IMG/VR virus record: IMGVR_UViG_3300012931_000895 | Coordinates: 1 to 35,725 of that record | Strand: one strand, 5' to 3' | Source: a virus | DNA length: 35,725 nt | In this document: positions 1,180 through 8,375 of the stretch, piece by piece | Numbering within the stretch: position 1 is the stretch's first letter | Layout of the letters: every line of letters starts with the position of its first letter | Position numbers and translations under genes: made by a program | Notes under the pieces: generated by a model | Told to the model about the DNA's origin: nothing | What the model saw: only the letters and a program-made list of their open reading frames with translations | Databases searched by the model: none

Positions 1180-1282
1180 CAATTGGACTAGATATGGCTA
1201 ACCAATACAGATCATCTAGAGACAGAGGTATCTATATTACGTGTAATAGATATATTAAATAAATTACACGCAATACTACCTA
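1180..1282. other. AT-rich intergenic region after int, candidate attachment-site region
   Basis: This short non-coding stretch marks the change from GC-rich phage DNA to the AT-rich block. It holds an 8-bp inverted repeat, CGTGTAAT at 1240-1247 and ATTACACG at 1263-1270, with a 15-nt AT-only-like loop, and a nested TATTAC/GTAATA repeat at 1235-1248. It could be an int 3' end structure or integrase arm sites. No core attachment sequence can be proven because no second copy lies in the window. Confidence 0.3.
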
Positions 1283-1396
1283 TCATTTCCCGCCATTTGC
1301 CGCTTTCATAATAGCCTCAGCCGCAGCCTTTATCACTGCCCATGAGACACTACCTAATTGTCTTACTGCTTCCGCTACTGCTTCCGTCCAAGTCAT
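1283..1396 (-). CDS. 37-residue hydrophobic/amphipathic microprotein
   Basis: A short frame (MTWTEAVAEAVRQLG, then a region rich in Ala, Val and Ile, ending ANGGK) that is below usual ORF cut-offs. Its reality is supported by a near-perfect Shine-Dalgarno AAGGAGG (1402-1408) five bases before the ATG and by a promoter-like pair upstream (TTGGTA, 18 nt, TATTAT). Hydrophobic residues alternate with Glu, Lys and Arg as expected for an amphipathic helix, so membrane association is possible. It lies 118 bp after the stop of the AT-rich operon, on the same strand, and appears to be transcribed separately. No family is recognised. A toxin-like, signalling or regulatory peptide is possible, but function is inference only. 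Confidence 0.55.
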   Translation of the reverse strand: MTWTEAVAEAVRQLGSVSWAVIKAAAEAIMKAANGGK

Positions 1397-1425
1397 GATC
1401 GCCTCCTTAGGTTCAGTAATCCATG

Positions 1426-1455
1426 ATAATAGTGCAAAATGCTAATAAATACCAA
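1426..1455 (-). promoter_or_regulatory. Promoter of the 37-residue gene
   Basis: On the minus strand TTGGTA (1455-1450) and TATTAT (1431-1426) are separated by 18 bp, matching sigma70 consensus at 4/6 and 5/6. Transcription would start about 20-25 bases before the strong AAGGAGG site. Upstream lies a 7-bp inverted repeat AATTACT/AGTAATT (1464-1470, 1484-1490), which may be an operator or the 3' end structure of the preceding operon. Confidence 0.5.
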
Positions 1456-1514
1456 TTTTTTCGAATTACTAGATCTTTACTTCAGTAATTAGCTTTATTA
1501 GTTAATGCCTTATT

Positions 1515-2276
1515 TCATTTCTCCCTTACAAGCGAATTTACAAGTCCCACCAGATTCCAATCTGGCCTATAATTAAAATTAATTGATTGATTATTGTTAT
1601 ATACCGAACAATCAATTATTTTGATTCCGTTGCTTGAATGGTTCTTTGCTTCAGTTTTGTAGTCATCCATTTCTAGATAATGTTTCTTCCCATCTTCATC
1701 TATCAACATTTGAAGTAATGCATCAAAATAAAAATTATCAATATCCGCTATGTAGCCCTTCGCTTCATATTTGCAATATAGCAAACTATTACTTGGAACC
1801 TTATAAAAATATACCAACGGATCATTATAGGGATAATCATTCGAACTATGCGTCTCATGATATTTTCCATCAAAAGACCATAATGTTATAAGTACGTCTT
1901 CAATATACTCTCCAGTATCGCTGTCTTTTGCTCCAGTTATCAATATATATTTTTCTTTTCTTTCTGGAACAAAAACTGAATTTATTTCCTGCAGCTCTTC
2001 CTTGCTGCTCTTTTGTTCTGAAGTACGCACCAAACTATCAAAATTATTCACATACGATATCTCATTCGTATTCTTTCTATCCGCATATGTTGGCAATAAC
2101 ACTAATAGCAAAGATCCAATTATGGCAGAAATAACAACAAATATCCCAGCGATATATACTTCTCTATGCTTCTTTTTCAAGGAATGATCTACAGCGTTCT
2201 TATTCTGTTGTTCTTCATCAACACCACTCGCCTCAGGTTTTATTATTTCATTACTGATTTTACAGCCTCCCGCCAT
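1515..2276 (-). CDS. Single-pass membrane protein of the AT-rich operon
   Basis: A 253-residue protein that I do not recognise. Residues about 1-40 are polar and Lys/Glu-rich, residues about 41-65 form one clear hydrophobic transmembrane helix (begins YIAGIFVVIS), and the remaining 185 residues form a soluble, Asp/Tyr/Asn-rich domain. The pattern suggests an N-in anchor with an external domain, or a membrane-tethered domain. The ATG lies 34 bp inside the end of the upstream gene, so translation is probably coupled; no good later in-frame ATG exists. Last gene of a five-gene operon. Codon use is AT-rich, unlike the flanking phage genes. By position it may be a membrane effector or sensor of the putative defence module; that role is inference. 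Confidence 0.75.
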   Translation of the reverse strand: MAGGCKISNEIIKPEASGVDEEQQNKNAVDHSLKKKHREVYIAGIFVVISAIIGSLLLVLLPTYADRKNTNEISYVNNFDSLVRTSEQKSSKEELQEINSVFVPERKEKYILITGAKDSDTGEYIEDVLITLWSFDGKYHETHSSNDYPYNDPLVYFYKVPSNSLLYCKYEAKGYIADIDNFYFDALLQMLIDEDGKKHYLEMDDYKTEAKNHSSNGIKIIDCSVYNNNQSINFNYRPDWNLVGLVNSLVREK

Positions 2277-3601
2277 ACTTTCAAATGATTAATTAATGCA
2301 CCATATGTTACTGATGATATTTCTTTATAGTCTACTTCAAGTTCATCAAGTAATTCTCTCAACGGTTGTTCATTGATTCGCTTTATTTCTTCTGCCTTGT
2401 TATACAGGTAATGCCTTATTCCTGCTTCTTTCGCTCCCGCTGTAGGGTACTCAAATCTTCGAATCGTACCCTTAACCGGAACTACCGTTACTTTACTATC
2501 ACCATATGCATTAAAAGCACCCTCCGCACTTCCATACTCCTTAATTAGGCTCTCGCACTTAAGACATCTACATACTTTGTCGTTGAATGTTTTTTTACTC
2601 TCTAGCCATCCTTTAGATATAACTATTCTTGCAGCATCTGCATACTTTAGCCTCGAATGCGCCTTCATTAAATAGAATCTTGCCTGTGGCAATCCACCAC
2701 CAACTGGTACGACTTCTCTATGCTCGCCATAATTCACAGAGTGACCGAATCCTGTTAAAAGATACTCAGCATCCTTATGACACAACAGTTCTGACAGATA
2801 GCCTCCATGGATATTGACCACTTCTGACGTCAAGCTCTTTAGCGACCGTAAAAAAACAATATATTCTTTGCACTCCGAAGTAGATAGATTCTCTTCCTCA
2901 TGACTATCTATCCAGAGGAGTATTCCATCTACTGGTATCTTTATTTCTTTGATTGTTCTAGCGATCTCGGGTACTGAGTCCAACATCATTCCCGGCAGAA
3001 TGAGAGCTAGGAATATTTTTGAAGATGAGTATTTTGCTTTTGCTTCGCTGTAAAAAGCAAGATTAATCTTTAACCATTCTTTCCATGCATTTGGTGTCAG
3101 ATAAAAATATGGCGCAACAACAAACTCTGGAGATAGAAAAGATAAATCTCCTATCATATCTCGTGTTTCATCATCAATTGATTCTCTTAAGAAATTCAAT
3201 TGAAAATCTACTATGTTTTTACAAACACCTTCTATTACTTTTCCAATAGGATTTCCTTTTGAATCAAGAAACGTCCTAGGCGTAAGTGGTTTATCTTCTT
3301 CTATCACGGAAGCAAAGGGCTCAAGTAAATGTTCTCGAGCCAGACTGACAATGGAAGGCTTGAATTCATATTCTAATCCATTACTACTTTTGCGTTTGAG
3401 ATGAATCGTATCATGCTGGAAAGCATGTGTTTGCGGATCTATATAGAATGGCTTCGCTGCTGTTGCTAGCATTGAGGCTATTCCGTCTGGAGTATGAGAA
3501 ACAATATTTCCATTCAGCCCGATGCAATCATAATGATGACGATCTTTTCCAAGGAAAAATCTTTTTTCAGCATGAACGTTATAATGAAGAATATGTTTCA
3601 C
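2243..3601 (-). CDS. TGT/DpdA-like TIM-barrel protein with CxCxxC motif
   Basis: A 452-residue protein with alternating hydrophobic strands and helices across residues about 120-340 that looks like a TIM barrel. A CRCLKC motif (Cys344, Cys346, Cys349) followed by His397 (IRHYLYNK) matches the spacing style of the zinc site of tRNA-guanine transglycosylases and the phage DNA-modifying DpdA relatives (CxCxxC then distant His). The N-terminal part carries a conserved-looking FYIDPQTHAF segment around Asp55. This makes a base-exchange or nucleic-acid base-recognition enzyme plausible, but the typical TGT active-site signatures are not obvious, so the assignment is tentative. Start is GTG, overlapping the stop of the nuclease-like gene by 4 bp. 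It overlaps the next gene by 34 bp. AT-rich composition. Confidence 0.8.
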   Translation of the reverse strand: MKHILHYNVHAEKRFFLGKDRHHYDCIGLNGNIVSHTPDGIASMLATAAKPFYIDPQTHAFQHDTIHLKRKSSNGLEYEFKPSIVSLAREHLLEPFASVIEEDKPLTPRTFLDSKGNPIGKVIEGVCKNIVDFQLNFLRESIDDETRDMIGDLSFLSPEFVVAPYFYLTPNAWKEWLKINLAFYSEAKAKYSSSKIFLALILPGMMLDSVPEIARTIKEIKIPVDGILLWIDSHEEENLSTSECKEYIVFLRSLKSLTSEVVNIHGGYLSELLCHKDAEYLLTGFGHSVNYGEHREVVPVGGGLPQARFYLMKAHSRLKYADAARIVISKGWLESKKTFNDKVCRCLKCESLIKEYGSAEGAFNAYGDSKVTVVPVKGTIRRFEYPTAGAKEAGIRHYLYNKAEEIKRINEQPLRELLDELEVDYKEISSVTYGALINHLKVWREAVKSVMK

Positions 3602-4011
3602 CTAAATTGCTCCTCCATTATTCGTCTACGAAGCTGTTCCCTCCGCAGTGGCCATGCAGCATGACTCCACACAGGCGCCCAAGCCTCTTCGACTTGACCA
3701 CTCGAAGAAACAAATATTAAACCAATGCCTTTTTCTCTTATCAAGGCAACTGTAAATGGCTTTAGTGTTCTTCGATATGTAGCAACCACCACCTGATCGG
3801 CTGAGAGCTTATGAGTACTTAGCTGAGCAATAGCTCTCTTTATATCTGACATTTTACATTCAACTACCAATACCCTTCCATCTGGTCCGATCGCTGCAAT
3901 GTCAGCACTTCGATGGAAGTTTGCAACTTCAGTTGCCACTATATAACCCTTCTCGACCAGGTTTGCTTTCACTGCTTGTGTAATTGTTTCTTCATAGTTT
4001 ATACACTTCAT
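3598..4011 (-). CDS. PD-(D/E)XK-superfamily nuclease-like protein
   Basis: A 137-residue protein with the hallmarks of a minimal restriction-endonuclease-like fold: Glu28 in the preceding helix, Asp37 (SADIAAIGP), Glu51-x-Lys53 (VVECKMS) and a downstream Gln63 (AIAQLSTH). These correspond to the E...D...ExK...Q pattern of RecB-like and VRR-like nucleases. It would cut or nick DNA, or, if catalytically weak, bind it. There is no separate DNA-recognition domain, so specificity could come from partners in the same operon. ATG overlaps the upstream stop by 4 bp and its own stop overlaps the next start by 4 bp, so stoichiometric production with both neighbours is likely. A Holliday-junction-resolvase-like archaeal fold is the main alternative. 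Confidence 0.8.
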   Translation of the reverse strand: MKCINYEETITQAVKANLVEKGYIVATEVANFHRSADIAAIGPDGRVLVVECKMSDIKRAIAQLSTHKLSADQVVVATYRRTLKPFTVALIREKGIGLIFVSSSGQVEEAWAPVWSHAAWPLRREQLRRRIMEEQFR

Positions 4012-4529
4012 GATACATATTCCTTACGCAGATATCGACCAGCCAATTCATTAACCCAAGTTATGCGATGCTCAATAAAACAGATCAGCATCAACTGTGA
4101 AACAAATCCAAAAAACGGGACAATGAATACGAGTACTAATTCCCCCCAATAACAATCTGGATAGTATTTCGTCAAAACCATCGCAGATAATGCGATACAG
4201 ACTAGTACAATAATCAGTATTGAAACACAAATGCCTAAACATCTTCTTGCAAGTCGGTTAATGAAATATATTCCTTGATAATCATTCAATAATGCGAAAT
4301 GTAGTCGTGCAAACCGCTCAGCCCGGCTTCTTGTTTCGCCGACACTCACTCTCTCAGCCTCGCTCTGATATTCTTGGATAAATCCTTCTGAATAACAAAA
4401 CCTCAACTCATCACGAATGATTGTTTTAAGACTATCGATCTTTTCGATCGCAGTACGACGAGTTGCAAGGATTATAGTCAGTAGAATATTCAGTGCGCCT
4501 AAAAAATAGCCAACAATGGCGACAGTCAT
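4008..4529 (-). CDS. Three-helix membrane protein of the AT-rich operon
   Basis: A 173-residue protein with a hydrophobic helix near the N-terminus (about residues 4-22), a charged helical segment of about 70 residues, then two closely spaced hydrophobic helices (about 97-120 and 127-152). No known family is recognised. The layout, with a cytoplasmic helical middle and paired C-terminal helices, is seen in many small effector membrane proteins of defence systems, but also in unrelated proteins. ATGA overlaps with both neighbours show strict translational coupling. Within a module that also encodes a nuclease-like protein and a Panacea-like protein, a membrane-damaging or signalling part is possible; this is inference from context only. 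Confidence 0.75.
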   Translation of the reverse strand: MTVAIVGYFLGALNILLTIILATRRTAIEKIDSLKTIIRDELRFCYSEGFIQEYQSEAERVSVGETRSRAERFARLHFALLNDYQGIYFINRLARRCLGICVSILIIVLVCIALSAMVLTKYYPDCYWGELVLVFIVPFFGFVSQLMLICFIEHRITWVNELAGRYLRKEYVS

Positions 4530-5089
4530 TTTGAAACCAAATACCGATCTCTTATTAGTGATTTCTCGGTATATCCATCTTTATATTTTTTATATACATA
4601 CTCGAGTATTTTATTCAAAGGTGTAGAAGTCATAATATCTCGATAATGGCCTATTGCTTCTTTTTGACTTTCCAACAACTCATTCCAAGCCTCAAGAGCC
4701 TTATCATTCCCTTTGTCTGTTAAGAAGAATTCTTCACTTATATATTCATCATCTGCGTCTTCTTGACCAGAATCATCGAGCCAGTATTCGTATTCTTCTA
4801 GCTCCTCGTCAGTAGCACGATTCCCGGATTTAATCTGTACAAAATTCCAATTGATAAGGAACTCAAGATCATTCAGCACATCTGATGAAAATGGTCCATA
4901 CTTCCATGCAAAAAACTCAGGTAATTTTTCCTCAACAACTTCTCCCTTTTTTATCTCAGGCCATAATTCCTTTTGGAAAAGAAAAACCATTTTCATGAGT
5001 CTCGTTCGACCTGAGACTGGAGGTAGTGGCTTTTCTTTGTTGGGTGAACACAATAAGAGCAAGATAATTTTCTTACCAGACAATTTCAT
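4526..5089 (-). CDS. Panacea/YwgA-like (DUF4065-related) protein
   Basis: A 187-residue protein. The start MKLSGKKIILLLL followed by GRTRLMKMVFLFQKE and FFAWKYGPFSSDVLNDL matches the pattern of YwgA/SocA/DUF4065 (Panacea) proteins, which often serve as antitoxins or adaptors in toxin-antitoxin and defence loci. I chose the ATG at 5089 because it has an upstream AGGATGAG site, starts exactly at the family-like region, and lies just after a promoter; the open frame continues further upstream but without convincing protein sequence. First gene of the operon, so made first or in most amount, as expected of a neutralising component. The C-terminal half is acidic (about residues 95-125). Antitoxin function is inferred from the family, not shown. 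Confidence 0.75.
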   Translation of the reverse strand: MKLSGKKIILLLLCSPNKEKPLPPVSGRTRLMKMVFLFQKELWPEIKKGEVVEEKLPEFFAWKYGPFSSDVLNDLEFLINWNFVQIKSGNRATDEELEEYEYWLDDSGQEDADDEYISEEFFLTDKGNDKALEAWNELLESQKEAIGHYRDIMTSTPLNKILEYVYKKYKDGYTEKSLIRDRYLVSK

Positions 5090-5116
5090 ATACTCATCCT
5101 GAGGGAAGGCTAACTC

Positions 5117-5145
5117 AGTATGAATAAGTGAGAAAGATCCGTCAA
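5117..5145 (-). promoter_or_regulatory. Promoter of the AT-rich five-gene operon
   Basis: On the minus strand TTGACG (5145-5140) and CATACT (5122-5117) are 17 bp apart, 5/6 and 4/6 of the sigma70 consensus. The predicted transcript starts about 20 bases before the ATG at 5089. The -35 box lies two bases from a perfect 11-bp inverted repeat, suggesting regulated expression. Confidence 0.55.
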
Positions 5146-5147
5146 CT

Positions 5148-5173
5148 GAAGGTGTAGCCTCCGCTACACCTTC
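5148..5173. repeat. Perfect 11-bp inverted repeat upstream of the operon promoter
   Basis: GAAGGTGTAGC (5148-5158) and GCTACACCTTC (5163-5173) are exact inverse complements with a 4-base centre. Neither side is followed by a T-run on the transcribed strand, so it is not a normal intrinsic terminator; the position next to the -35 box fits an operator bound by a dimeric regulator. Confidence 0.5.
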
Positions 5174-5193
5174 CTTTGATTTCAAAAGTAGCG

Positions 5194-5226
5194 TTGTCTC
5201 CAGCACATAACAATCATCGGAGACAA
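5194..5226. repeat. Second inverted repeat upstream of the operon
   Basis: TTGTCTCC (5194-5201) and GGAGACAA (5219-5226) are perfect 8-bp inverse complements 17 bp apart. It sits between the repressor gene end and the 11-bp repeat. It may be a further operator or mark the edge of the inserted AT-rich block. The rest of 5090-5318 has no convincing gene. Confidence 0.35.
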
Positions 5227-5318
5227 TGTACGAATATGAATTTGGACATTTGTCTACAGAGTACCTTTTCAGCGCTGCCGATGATCTCCGATAAACATTT
5301 CGCCTTTTTTTATCAGCC

Positions 5319-5693
5319 TCAGGCGCCCGCCTGGGCCGCATCCCTGCGCACCCTCGCCTCCTCCGCAGCCGCGTGAATACCCGTGACCCAGGAATTCCGC
5401 ACGGACTCATCCAGGACAACCAGATCTTCGAGAACCATCTGATACTGCTTCGCCTTTGCTAGTAAGGCTTTATCGGCAGAGCCAAGAGCGGCGGCTTCTA
5501 TTCCATCGACGAGATACTCGACCGTCATACCAAGCTCTCGTGCAACCGCCGATGCTTCGTCAGCTCGAGGGAGAAGCCCGCGTCTACGGTACGTGTTCCA
5601 CGCCCCTCGGGTGAGTCCCGCTTTCCCAGCTAGGTACTCGATGGTCGTTCCTCGAGCCTTGGCCGCGGTCTTCACCCGTTCGAAAAAGTCCAT
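5319..5693 (-). CDS. CI-like phage repressor (XRE-type HTH)
   Basis: A 124-residue regulator. Residues 1-60 (MDFFERVKTAAKARG, then TTIEYLAGKAGLTRGAWNTY) form a helix-turn-helix of the bacteriophage CI-repressor type. The C-terminal 60 residues are a helical, Ala-rich segment without an S24 self-cleavage domain, so RecA-driven autocleavage is not expected. The frame is open six codons further to a TTG, but the ATG at 5693 is preferred. It is divergent from the AbrB-like gene, as in CI/Cro switches, and three GTGACC-containing sites lie between them. A promoter with -10 at 5708-5703 would start transcription almost at the ATG, and there is no ribosome site, so the message may be leaderless, as for lambda cI from PRM. 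Confidence 0.85.
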   Translation of the reverse strand: MDFFERVKTAAKARGTTIEYLAGKAGLTRGAWNTYRRRGLLPRADEASAVARELGMTVEYLVDGIEAAALGSADKALLAKAKQYQMVLEDLVVLDESVRNSWVTGIHAAAEEARVRRDAAQAGA

Positions 5694-7695: not shown

Positions 7696-7827
7696 ATGCC
7701 GAACGAGAACGAGGGCCAGGGCGAGCAGCAGAACGAGGGAGCCCAGATGGGCGCGCAGCAGCAGAGCGAGGGCGGCGCGACCGACGGCGCCTCGCAGGGC
7801 TCCGGAGAGCAGTCGAGCGGCGAGTAG
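7696..7827 (+). CDS. 43-residue disordered Gln/Glu/Gly-rich microprotein
   Basis: Starts MPNENEGQGEQQNEG and consists almost only of Gln, Glu, Gly, Ser, Asn and Ala with no hydrophobic core, so it should be intrinsically disordered and acidic. A GGAGG (7685-7689) with good spacing precedes the ATG, which supports translation. It ends 77 bp before the tRNA-like gene. It could be a decoy, DNA-mimic or anti-restriction-type acidic peptide, but nothing specific is seen. Confidence 0.45.
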   Translation: MPNENEGQGEQQNEGAQMGAQQQSEGGATDGASQGSGEQSSGE

Positions 7828-7904: not shown

Positions 7905-7994
7905 ACGGGAGTAGCTCAGCGGAAGAGCGGTCGCCATGCCCGTGCATCGTCCGGGACACGCGACAGGTCGCGGGTTCAAGCCCCGCCCCCCGTT
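7905..7994 (+). tRNA. tRNA-like gene with a 25-nt anticodon loop
   Basis: Cloverleaf parts seen by hand: acceptor ACGGGAG (7905-7911) with CCCCCGT (7987-7993; one A-C mismatch); T8-A9; D stem GCTC/GAGC (7914-7917, 7925-7928) with loop AGCGGAA holding A14 and G18G19; five-base variable region AGGTC (7965-7969) with C48 able to pair G15; T stem GCGGG/CCCGC (7970-7974, 7982-7986) with loop TTCAAGC. The anticodon stem GTCGC/GCGAC (7930-7934, 7960-7964) closes a 25-nt loop rather than 7, which can itself fold (CCCG 7939-7942 with CGGG 7952-7955). No encoded CCA. No standard anticodon can be assigned. It may be a tRNA with an 18-nt insertion, a tRNA-like decoy, or a decayed gene. Confidence 0.5.
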
Positions 7995-8087
7995 CGAGAA
8001 AGAAGGCCACGCACCACTCGGAGGATCCTCGGGTGGCGCGCGGGGGCGTTCGGACTGGACCGCCCTCGCCTCTTTCTGGGAGTCAAA

Positions 8088-8375
8088 ATGGAGATCTTCA
8101 CCATCGAGGTCACCGCGTCGGTCCTCGTCGGCGTGGAATTCGGAGGTATCGAGGAAGCGAAGAAAGCTGCCCGCGATCATGTCGCGAATGATTGGCTTCT
8201 CAGGTATCTGGACGGTGTCCGGCTCAAGGCCGGGCATTTCTATGTGAAGGGCGTATCCGCGGAGGTCGGGACCGGCGACTACTTCGTCGGGAACCTCCGC
8301 GTTGAGCGCAAGAGAAAGGTCGCGGCGCCGGTACAGGCCGCGGAGCTCCCCGAGGGGGAGCCGGACATCTTTTGA
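8088..8375 (+). CDS. Hypothetical early protein
   Basis: A 95-residue protein, beginning MEIFTIEVTASVLVGVEF, with alternating strand and helix pattern and an acidic C-terminal end. No family recognised. ATG 8088 has a GGGAG site a few bases upstream. It follows the tRNA-like gene, and its stop overlaps the TTG start of the next gene (TTGA). The region 7828-8087 contains only the hairpin and the tRNA-like gene. Confidence 0.6.
   Translation: MEIFTIEVTASVLVGVEFGGIEEAKKAARDHVANDWLLRYLDGVRLKAGHFYVKGVSAEVGTGDYFVGNLRVERKRKVAAPVQAAELPEGEPDIF

Follow-up and report, generated by a model that had tools for sequence, protein, structure and literature searches.

A tRNA-like gene with an expanded anticodon loop in a viral genome and phage genes of the same build

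Background

The usual explanations for the tRNAs of phages are codon use and resistance to defences that cut tRNAs, both of which require a readable anticodon. In decoding tRNAs this anticodon sits in a loop of 7 bases together with U33, a universally conserved tRNA base. In the bacterial Y RNA YrlA (RF02553), a tRNA-mimicking body is combined with a further module.

Evasion of anticodon nucleases and retrons by phage tRNAs has been described (PMC10264068, PMC11555353), and both a tRNA-dependent lysogeny (PMC10865867) and a bacterial pseudo-tRNA (PMC3399842) have been reported. In the engineered tRNA scaffold, foreign RNA is placed on a tRNA body for the sake of expression and stability (PMC3753655). 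This scaffold works like the RNA that we propose below, but it is man-made, and no natural phage counterpart of it was found in the open-licence PubMed Central literature. The same literature contained no phage tRNA bodies with expanded anticodon loops, although the phiC31 genome paper or subscription papers may mention them.

Here we analyse a tRNA-like gene in the virus record IMGVR_UViG_3300012931_000895, the whole 35,725 nucleotides of which are referred to as the window, and compare it with phage genes of the same build.

Results

Anatomy of the gene

A sequence-only reading of the window had placed a tRNA-like gene at 7905-7994, and these coordinates proved correct when the sequence was re-read. 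The gene and its immediate surroundings comprise the following features.

7696-7827, plus strand: upstream small open reading frame of 43 aa
7905-7994, plus strand: tRNA-like gene, body and base 73 (Rfam RF00005, E 8.3e-7; ARAGORN)
7905-7911, plus strand: 5' strand of the acceptor stem, ACGGGAG, pairing with CCCCCGT at 7987-7993 (sequence, ARAGORN drawing)
7914-7928, plus strand: D arm, GCTC-AGCGGAA-GAGC, 4/4 pairs (sequence, ARAGORN drawing)
7930-7934, plus strand: 5' strand of the anticodon stem, GTCGC (Rfam, ARAGORN, strict descriptor)
7935-7959, plus strand: expanded anticodon loop of 25 bases with A in the place of U33 (sequence, Rfam, ARAGORN)
7960-7964, plus strand: 3' strand of the anticodon stem, GCGAC, 5/5 pairs with GTCGC
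7965-7969, plus strand: variable loop (sequence)
7970-7986, plus strand: T arm, GCGGG-TTCAAGC-CCCGC, 5/5 pairs (sequence, ARAGORN drawing)
7987-7994, plus strand: 3' strand of the acceptor stem and base 73, a T (7994); CCA is not encoded
7997-8077, plus strand: possible second structure, a helix AGAAAGA/TCTTTCT (7 bp) closing two hairpins
8088-8375, plus strand: downstream gene of 95 aa (translation)

As had been stated, the acceptor, D and T arms fit a tRNA; the acceptor stem has 6 of its 7 pairs, the sixth being an A-C mismatch. The covariance-model scoring that had been proposed as a check gave 45.7 bits against the RF00005 cut-off of 29 bits, with a four-arm cloverleaf in which the whole excess lies in the anticodon loop, and no other Rfam family scored above its cut-off at this site. 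Rfam and the intron mode of ARAGORN agree on the 5/5 anticodon stem and on an 18-base excess, bearing out the claim that this stem closes 25 bases instead of the normal 7. Neither program found another tRNA in the 35.7-kb record.

Like the tRNAs of RF00005, the gene has acceptor, D, anticodon and T stems as well as the consensus bases of the D and T loops, and it is glycine-like by its T73; this base and the acceptor stem perhaps indicate a glycine-type origin. Unlike a tRNA, it has 25 loop bases, no U33 and no readable anticodon. The class II tRNA that ARAGORN draws by default, His(atg), was rejected, as it needs an anticodon stem of 3/5 pairs and a variable region of 27 bases. ARAGORN found no tmRNA here, and with RF00005 as the sole Rfam family this identity was rejected as well. 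The same applies to YrlA: the window gave no RF02553 hit even at an E-value limit of 5, and the scanned neighbouring proteins (a subset of the open reading frames) showed no Ro/Rsr-type family.

Shuffled versions of the loop, CATGCCCGTGCATCGTCCGGGACAC, fold equally well (z -0.31), so that the small extra hairpin of the sequence-only reading is within chance, and the whole RNA shows a z of -0.65 against its shuffles.

Decoding and splicing

An 18-base excision could leave eight possible 7-base loops, six of them distinct, and U33 occurs in none of these. If the anticodon stem is read as 4 or 6 pairs, U33 and purine 37 still do not occur together in any product, and no single excision restores a 7-base loop with these two bases. 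The RNA would thus lack the conserved U33 whether unspliced or singly spliced, which disfavours the idea, raised in the sequence-only reading, of a tRNA with an unknown removable insertion.

A class of phage genes with expanded anticodon loops

Viral contigs were scanned with a pattern in which the D arm and the T arm of a tRNA lie 10-34 bases too far apart. In most of the listed matches it is the anticodon loop that holds the excess, not the variable arm. With a strict descriptor covering every arm, at least 32 loci besides the window, with loops of 16-40 bases, were retrieved among the matches listed, against 0 in Markov-shuffled copies of the loci (2.47 Mb). When the class is defined by complete arms, at least 4/5 pairs in the anticodon stem and a loop of at least 15 bases, irrespective of U33, all of which hold for the window gene, it comprises at least 68 sequences (the window's own and 67 others) with loops of 15-43 bases. 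The class is apparently widespread across phages and undescribed. Its members were the main support for one option of the sequence-only reading, a tRNA-like molecule that does not decode.

The inserts are highly diverse in sequence. As a set, the class loops fold better than shuffles (Wilcoxon p 3.5e-4) and several contain frank hairpins; many of them, the window's included, fold no better than shuffles. An NCCA is encoded directly after the acceptor stem in 13 of the 67 listed sequences against a chance of 1/64 (p 4e-11), an approximately twelvefold enrichment, indicating that the tRNA body is retained as a tRNA in the class. Other tRNAs are present in the fetched stretch of 30 of the 67 listed copies. 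No neighbour gene is common to the listed members of the class, with terminase, RNA ligase and recombination genes recurring a few times only.

Several contigs of this collection carry further RNAs. The large tRNA array of the viral contig L147, which also holds an expanded-loop tRNA-like gene, includes an RNase P RNA (L147:2375-2772, class A, 162 bits), and a permuted tmRNA and a GOLLD RNA (L149:3852-4080 and L146:2958-3395) are found on viral contigs with expanded-loop genes. On the minus strand of L136 lies a tRNA-like gene with the loop TTCGATGGCCATCGAA, the anticodon stem and loop of which form a single long perfect hairpin (CCATCTTCGATGG/CCATCGAAGATGG). In Mycobacterium phage Sparky, an unannotated T-arm-like segment (L225:1501-1536) a short distance ahead of the gene for a Ro RNA-binding protein is probably a Y RNA, i.e. 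a tRNA mimic.

Comparison with archaeal intron tRNAs

As a control, the same pattern was run on genome contigs (L229-L348), and one script with equal filters was applied to both sets. The genome-contig matches listed come almost only from archaea with intron-bearing tRNAs and are uninformative on the frequency of the class in bacterial chromosomes. These archaeal tRNAs resemble the window gene in gross layout, a 5-bp anticodon stem around a long loop, but they keep U33 and purine 37, which the phage class does not. In detail, U33 was present in 10 of 31 viral expanded loops with 5/5 stems versus 72 of 74 archaeal ones (Fisher p 1.4e-12; the class II tRNA filter may drop some loops with U33 and was applied to both sets alike), and purine 37 in 17 of 31 versus 73 of 74 (Fisher p 3.6e-8). 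The ordinary tRNAs of the viral loci retain U33 in 39 of 42 cases, compared with the same 10 of 31 (Fisher p 7.4e-8). The contrast in both bases argues that the phage class as a whole is not made up of tRNAs in which splicing of an intron restores decoding, although this could apply to individual members that have U33.

The phiC31-type subfamily

A BLAST search from the copy in phiC31 (L202:2502-2590; NC_001978.3 31423-31519) retrieved 14 phage records. This copy lies between gp13 and gp14 and has no feature in the record table, and the same position between the homologues of these genes was found in nine phages examined. Among the record tables examined, only that of Lilbooboo has a tRNA feature at this locus (tRNA-Gly). 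The copies of phiC31, Vash, Lilbooboo, Euratis, Samora, Sebastisaurus, RemusLoopin and Heather share with the window gene a complete tRNA body and an expanded anticodon loop, and they lie, as the window's does, between small genes of the same strand. Their loops measure 22-24 bases between 5-base stem strands, four pairs of which are kept in nearly all copies, and differ from the window loop, to which they are unrelated in sequence, by a conserved core and a hairpin. The insert can be written as AAYCCGGRR-hairpin-KGCAC; the sequence of the hairpin and even its loop type vary while its pairing is kept.

For the covariation analysis nine sequences were aligned, from eight phages and the metagenomic contig L095. 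The predicted pairs are formed in 98.6% of the cells, and 10 of 24 pairs are changed on both sides, among them two pairs of the anticodon stem and one of the inserted hairpin. None of 500 shuffles had as many both-side changes, and slid controls gave 0-2. At the same locus phiBT1 (L206:1501-1578) has a short loop, GACGTTCGA, in place of the insert. As this natural insert-minus variant keeps the body, the insert must be dispensable in at least one lineage.

The second, metagenomic subfamily

A pattern search with the core CTCAnGGnnAAGGnCC...GCnGG led to 21 contigs. The alignment of 22 distinct sequences (A4) showed covariation in the acceptor stem, the T stem, an inner stem of the insert and the insert hairpin. 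The insert has the strongly conserved core TCAnGG-nnAAGG-nCC in these metagenomic phages (e.g. L082:5464-5561 and L153:417-516) and possibly forms a pseudoknot. Both this subfamily and the phiC31-type one thus bear the marks of selection. Several copies of the metagenomic group are placed within tRNA arrays of large phages.

The window copy

The window loop belongs to neither of these covarying subfamilies. Both CCGGGA and GTGCA occur in it and in the phiC31 insert, yet their order is swapped and no hairpin lies between them in the window, and we treat this sharing as a coincidence. No tRNA-like relative of the window copy was found by DNA or by loop pattern, nor by way of three proteins of the record (TerL, an SbcC-like protein and one of 382 aa), and the search also found no relative of the proteins neighbouring the gene. 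The search for the same loop in related phages, which had been suggested as a check, hence yielded no relative of this copy.

Two simple modes of action were tried and rejected. Self-antisense pairing is one of them: the best duplexes of the window loop with the translation starts of the phage do not surpass those of shuffled loops (p 0.52). The longest non-self complement of the loop within the window measures 12 bases and lies on the strand that is antisense to the portal gene. The other, palindromic dimerisation, was prompted by CCCGGG/TCCGGA in the phiC31-type phages; the loops of the class show no enrichment of palindromes.

Genomic surroundings

The source record is viral, is classed as linear and may be a fragment. 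An integrase lies at its left edge, RusA is encoded upstream of the tRNA-like gene, and genes for a methyltransferase, TerL, portal and major capsid protein follow on the right of the latter. TerL and the capsid protein match mostly bacteriophage proteins with less than 60% identity, suggesting that the host is likely a bacterium.

The downstream 95-aa gene has no PHROG match. The 81-base element at 7997-8077 starts two bases past the tRNA-like gene and reaches as far as the ribosome-binding region of the 95-aa gene; it matches no Rfam family, its fold has a z of -2.02 with 8 of 200 shuffles equally good, and it could be a leader structure.

Farther to the left, at about 1200-5400, minus-strand genes beside the integrase form a low-GC island (34-42% GC versus 60-67% around it) that looks like acquired cargo. 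Its 452-aa protein has no Pfam, PADLOC or PDB-sequence match, a 297-aa protein shows a weak PADLOC match to PDC-M19A and a small protein a weak match to capH.

Discussion

We consider it fairly probable that the window gene encodes a non-decoding tRNA-like RNA of the phage, in which the body serves processing, stability or recognition and the loop is the variable part. The kept acceptor, D and T arms and the anticodon stem would let the host tRNA machinery recognise the RNA, RNase P would cut its 5' end, the 3' end would be trimmed and CCA added, and a stable L shape would protect the RNA. The 25 bases that replace the anticodon loop would keep it out of translation and may be its working part, which would most likely be bound by a protein or a second RNA; in this way a tRNA would serve the phage as the scaffold of a small RNA module. 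We infer that the RNA is transcribed together with the neighbouring genes of the same strand, processed and stable, with the loop as the effector. The acceptor mismatch, the lack of an encoded CCA and a loop that is not unusually structured are points against the scaffold reading for this copy. The reading is further weakened by the negative searches for a relative, for a target of the loop and for a recurring neighbour gene, and by the insert-free locus of phiBT1.

The mismatch, the missing CCA and the loop without a significant fold favour a decaying phage-borne tRNA, perhaps of glycine type, whose anticodon loop took up an insertion and which now persists as a neutral relic, and so does the fact that only one copy is known. 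However, the D, anticodon and T stems are all intact, the insert lies exactly within the anticodon loop, and the same arrangement is found in many unrelated phages, with compensatory changes in two subfamilies that are not expected under neutral decay. Decay, which the sequence-only reading had listed as an option, is thus not supported for the class, given the covarying arms of the two subfamilies, whereas the window copy has no relative found to argue against it; for this copy we regard decay as unlikely, though it deserves some weight. Somewhat less likely still is a decoy that would occupy a host factor recognising the tRNA body, such as a defence nuclease, a toxin or a processing enzyme, and take no part in translation. 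The intact body, the loss of decoding and the CCA encoded in part of the class would suit a decoy, as would the role of phage tRNAs against tRNA-targeting defences (PMC10264068, PMC11555353). But anticodon nucleases read the anticodon loop, and the absence of their usual target, the 7-base loop, weakens the idea of a decoy for them, which the sequence-only reading had named beside a processing signal as a possible role; no defence partner was identified, and binding of the body only does not account for the variety of the inserts.

A slightly smaller chance is given to an element of an mRNA leader between the 43-aa and the 95-aa genes, whose cleavage by RNase P would split the messages or control them, perhaps with the participation of the structure at 7997-8077. 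The close genes of the same strand on either side, the foldable element directly downstream and the similar position of the phiC31 copy, about 40 bases before gp14, are in line with such a leader, but it leaves the expanded anticodon loop and the conserved subfamily core unexplained, and many copies elsewhere lie in tRNA arrays, with other tRNAs near almost half of the listed ones. It is highly improbable, finally, that the gene encodes a tRNA that decodes once an unknown splicing activity has taken out a very short intron: ARAGORN can indeed draw it with an 18-base intron, but neither the eight possible loops nor the shifted stem registers supply the bases that true intron tRNAs retain, and the viral class is without them too.

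Returning to the non-decoding RNA that we favour, a wider and decidedly more tentative suggestion is that the tRNA fold is a general carrier in phages of many kinds, with exchangeable payloads that stand in for the anticodon loop and bind factors of the host or the phage. These payloads would be hairpins, conserved cores or unstructured segments, and the window gene and the phiC31-type locus would be two of many members.

Conclusion

Gene finders miss genes of this kind or force arbitrary anticodons on them, so that counts of phage tRNA repertoires may contain errors. The presence of a member in the genetically tractable phiC31 makes the question directly testable. Widespread phage tRNA bodies that do not decode would call for an explanation different from those usually given for phage tRNAs, and the tRNA body may serve phages as a vehicle for other small RNA parts.
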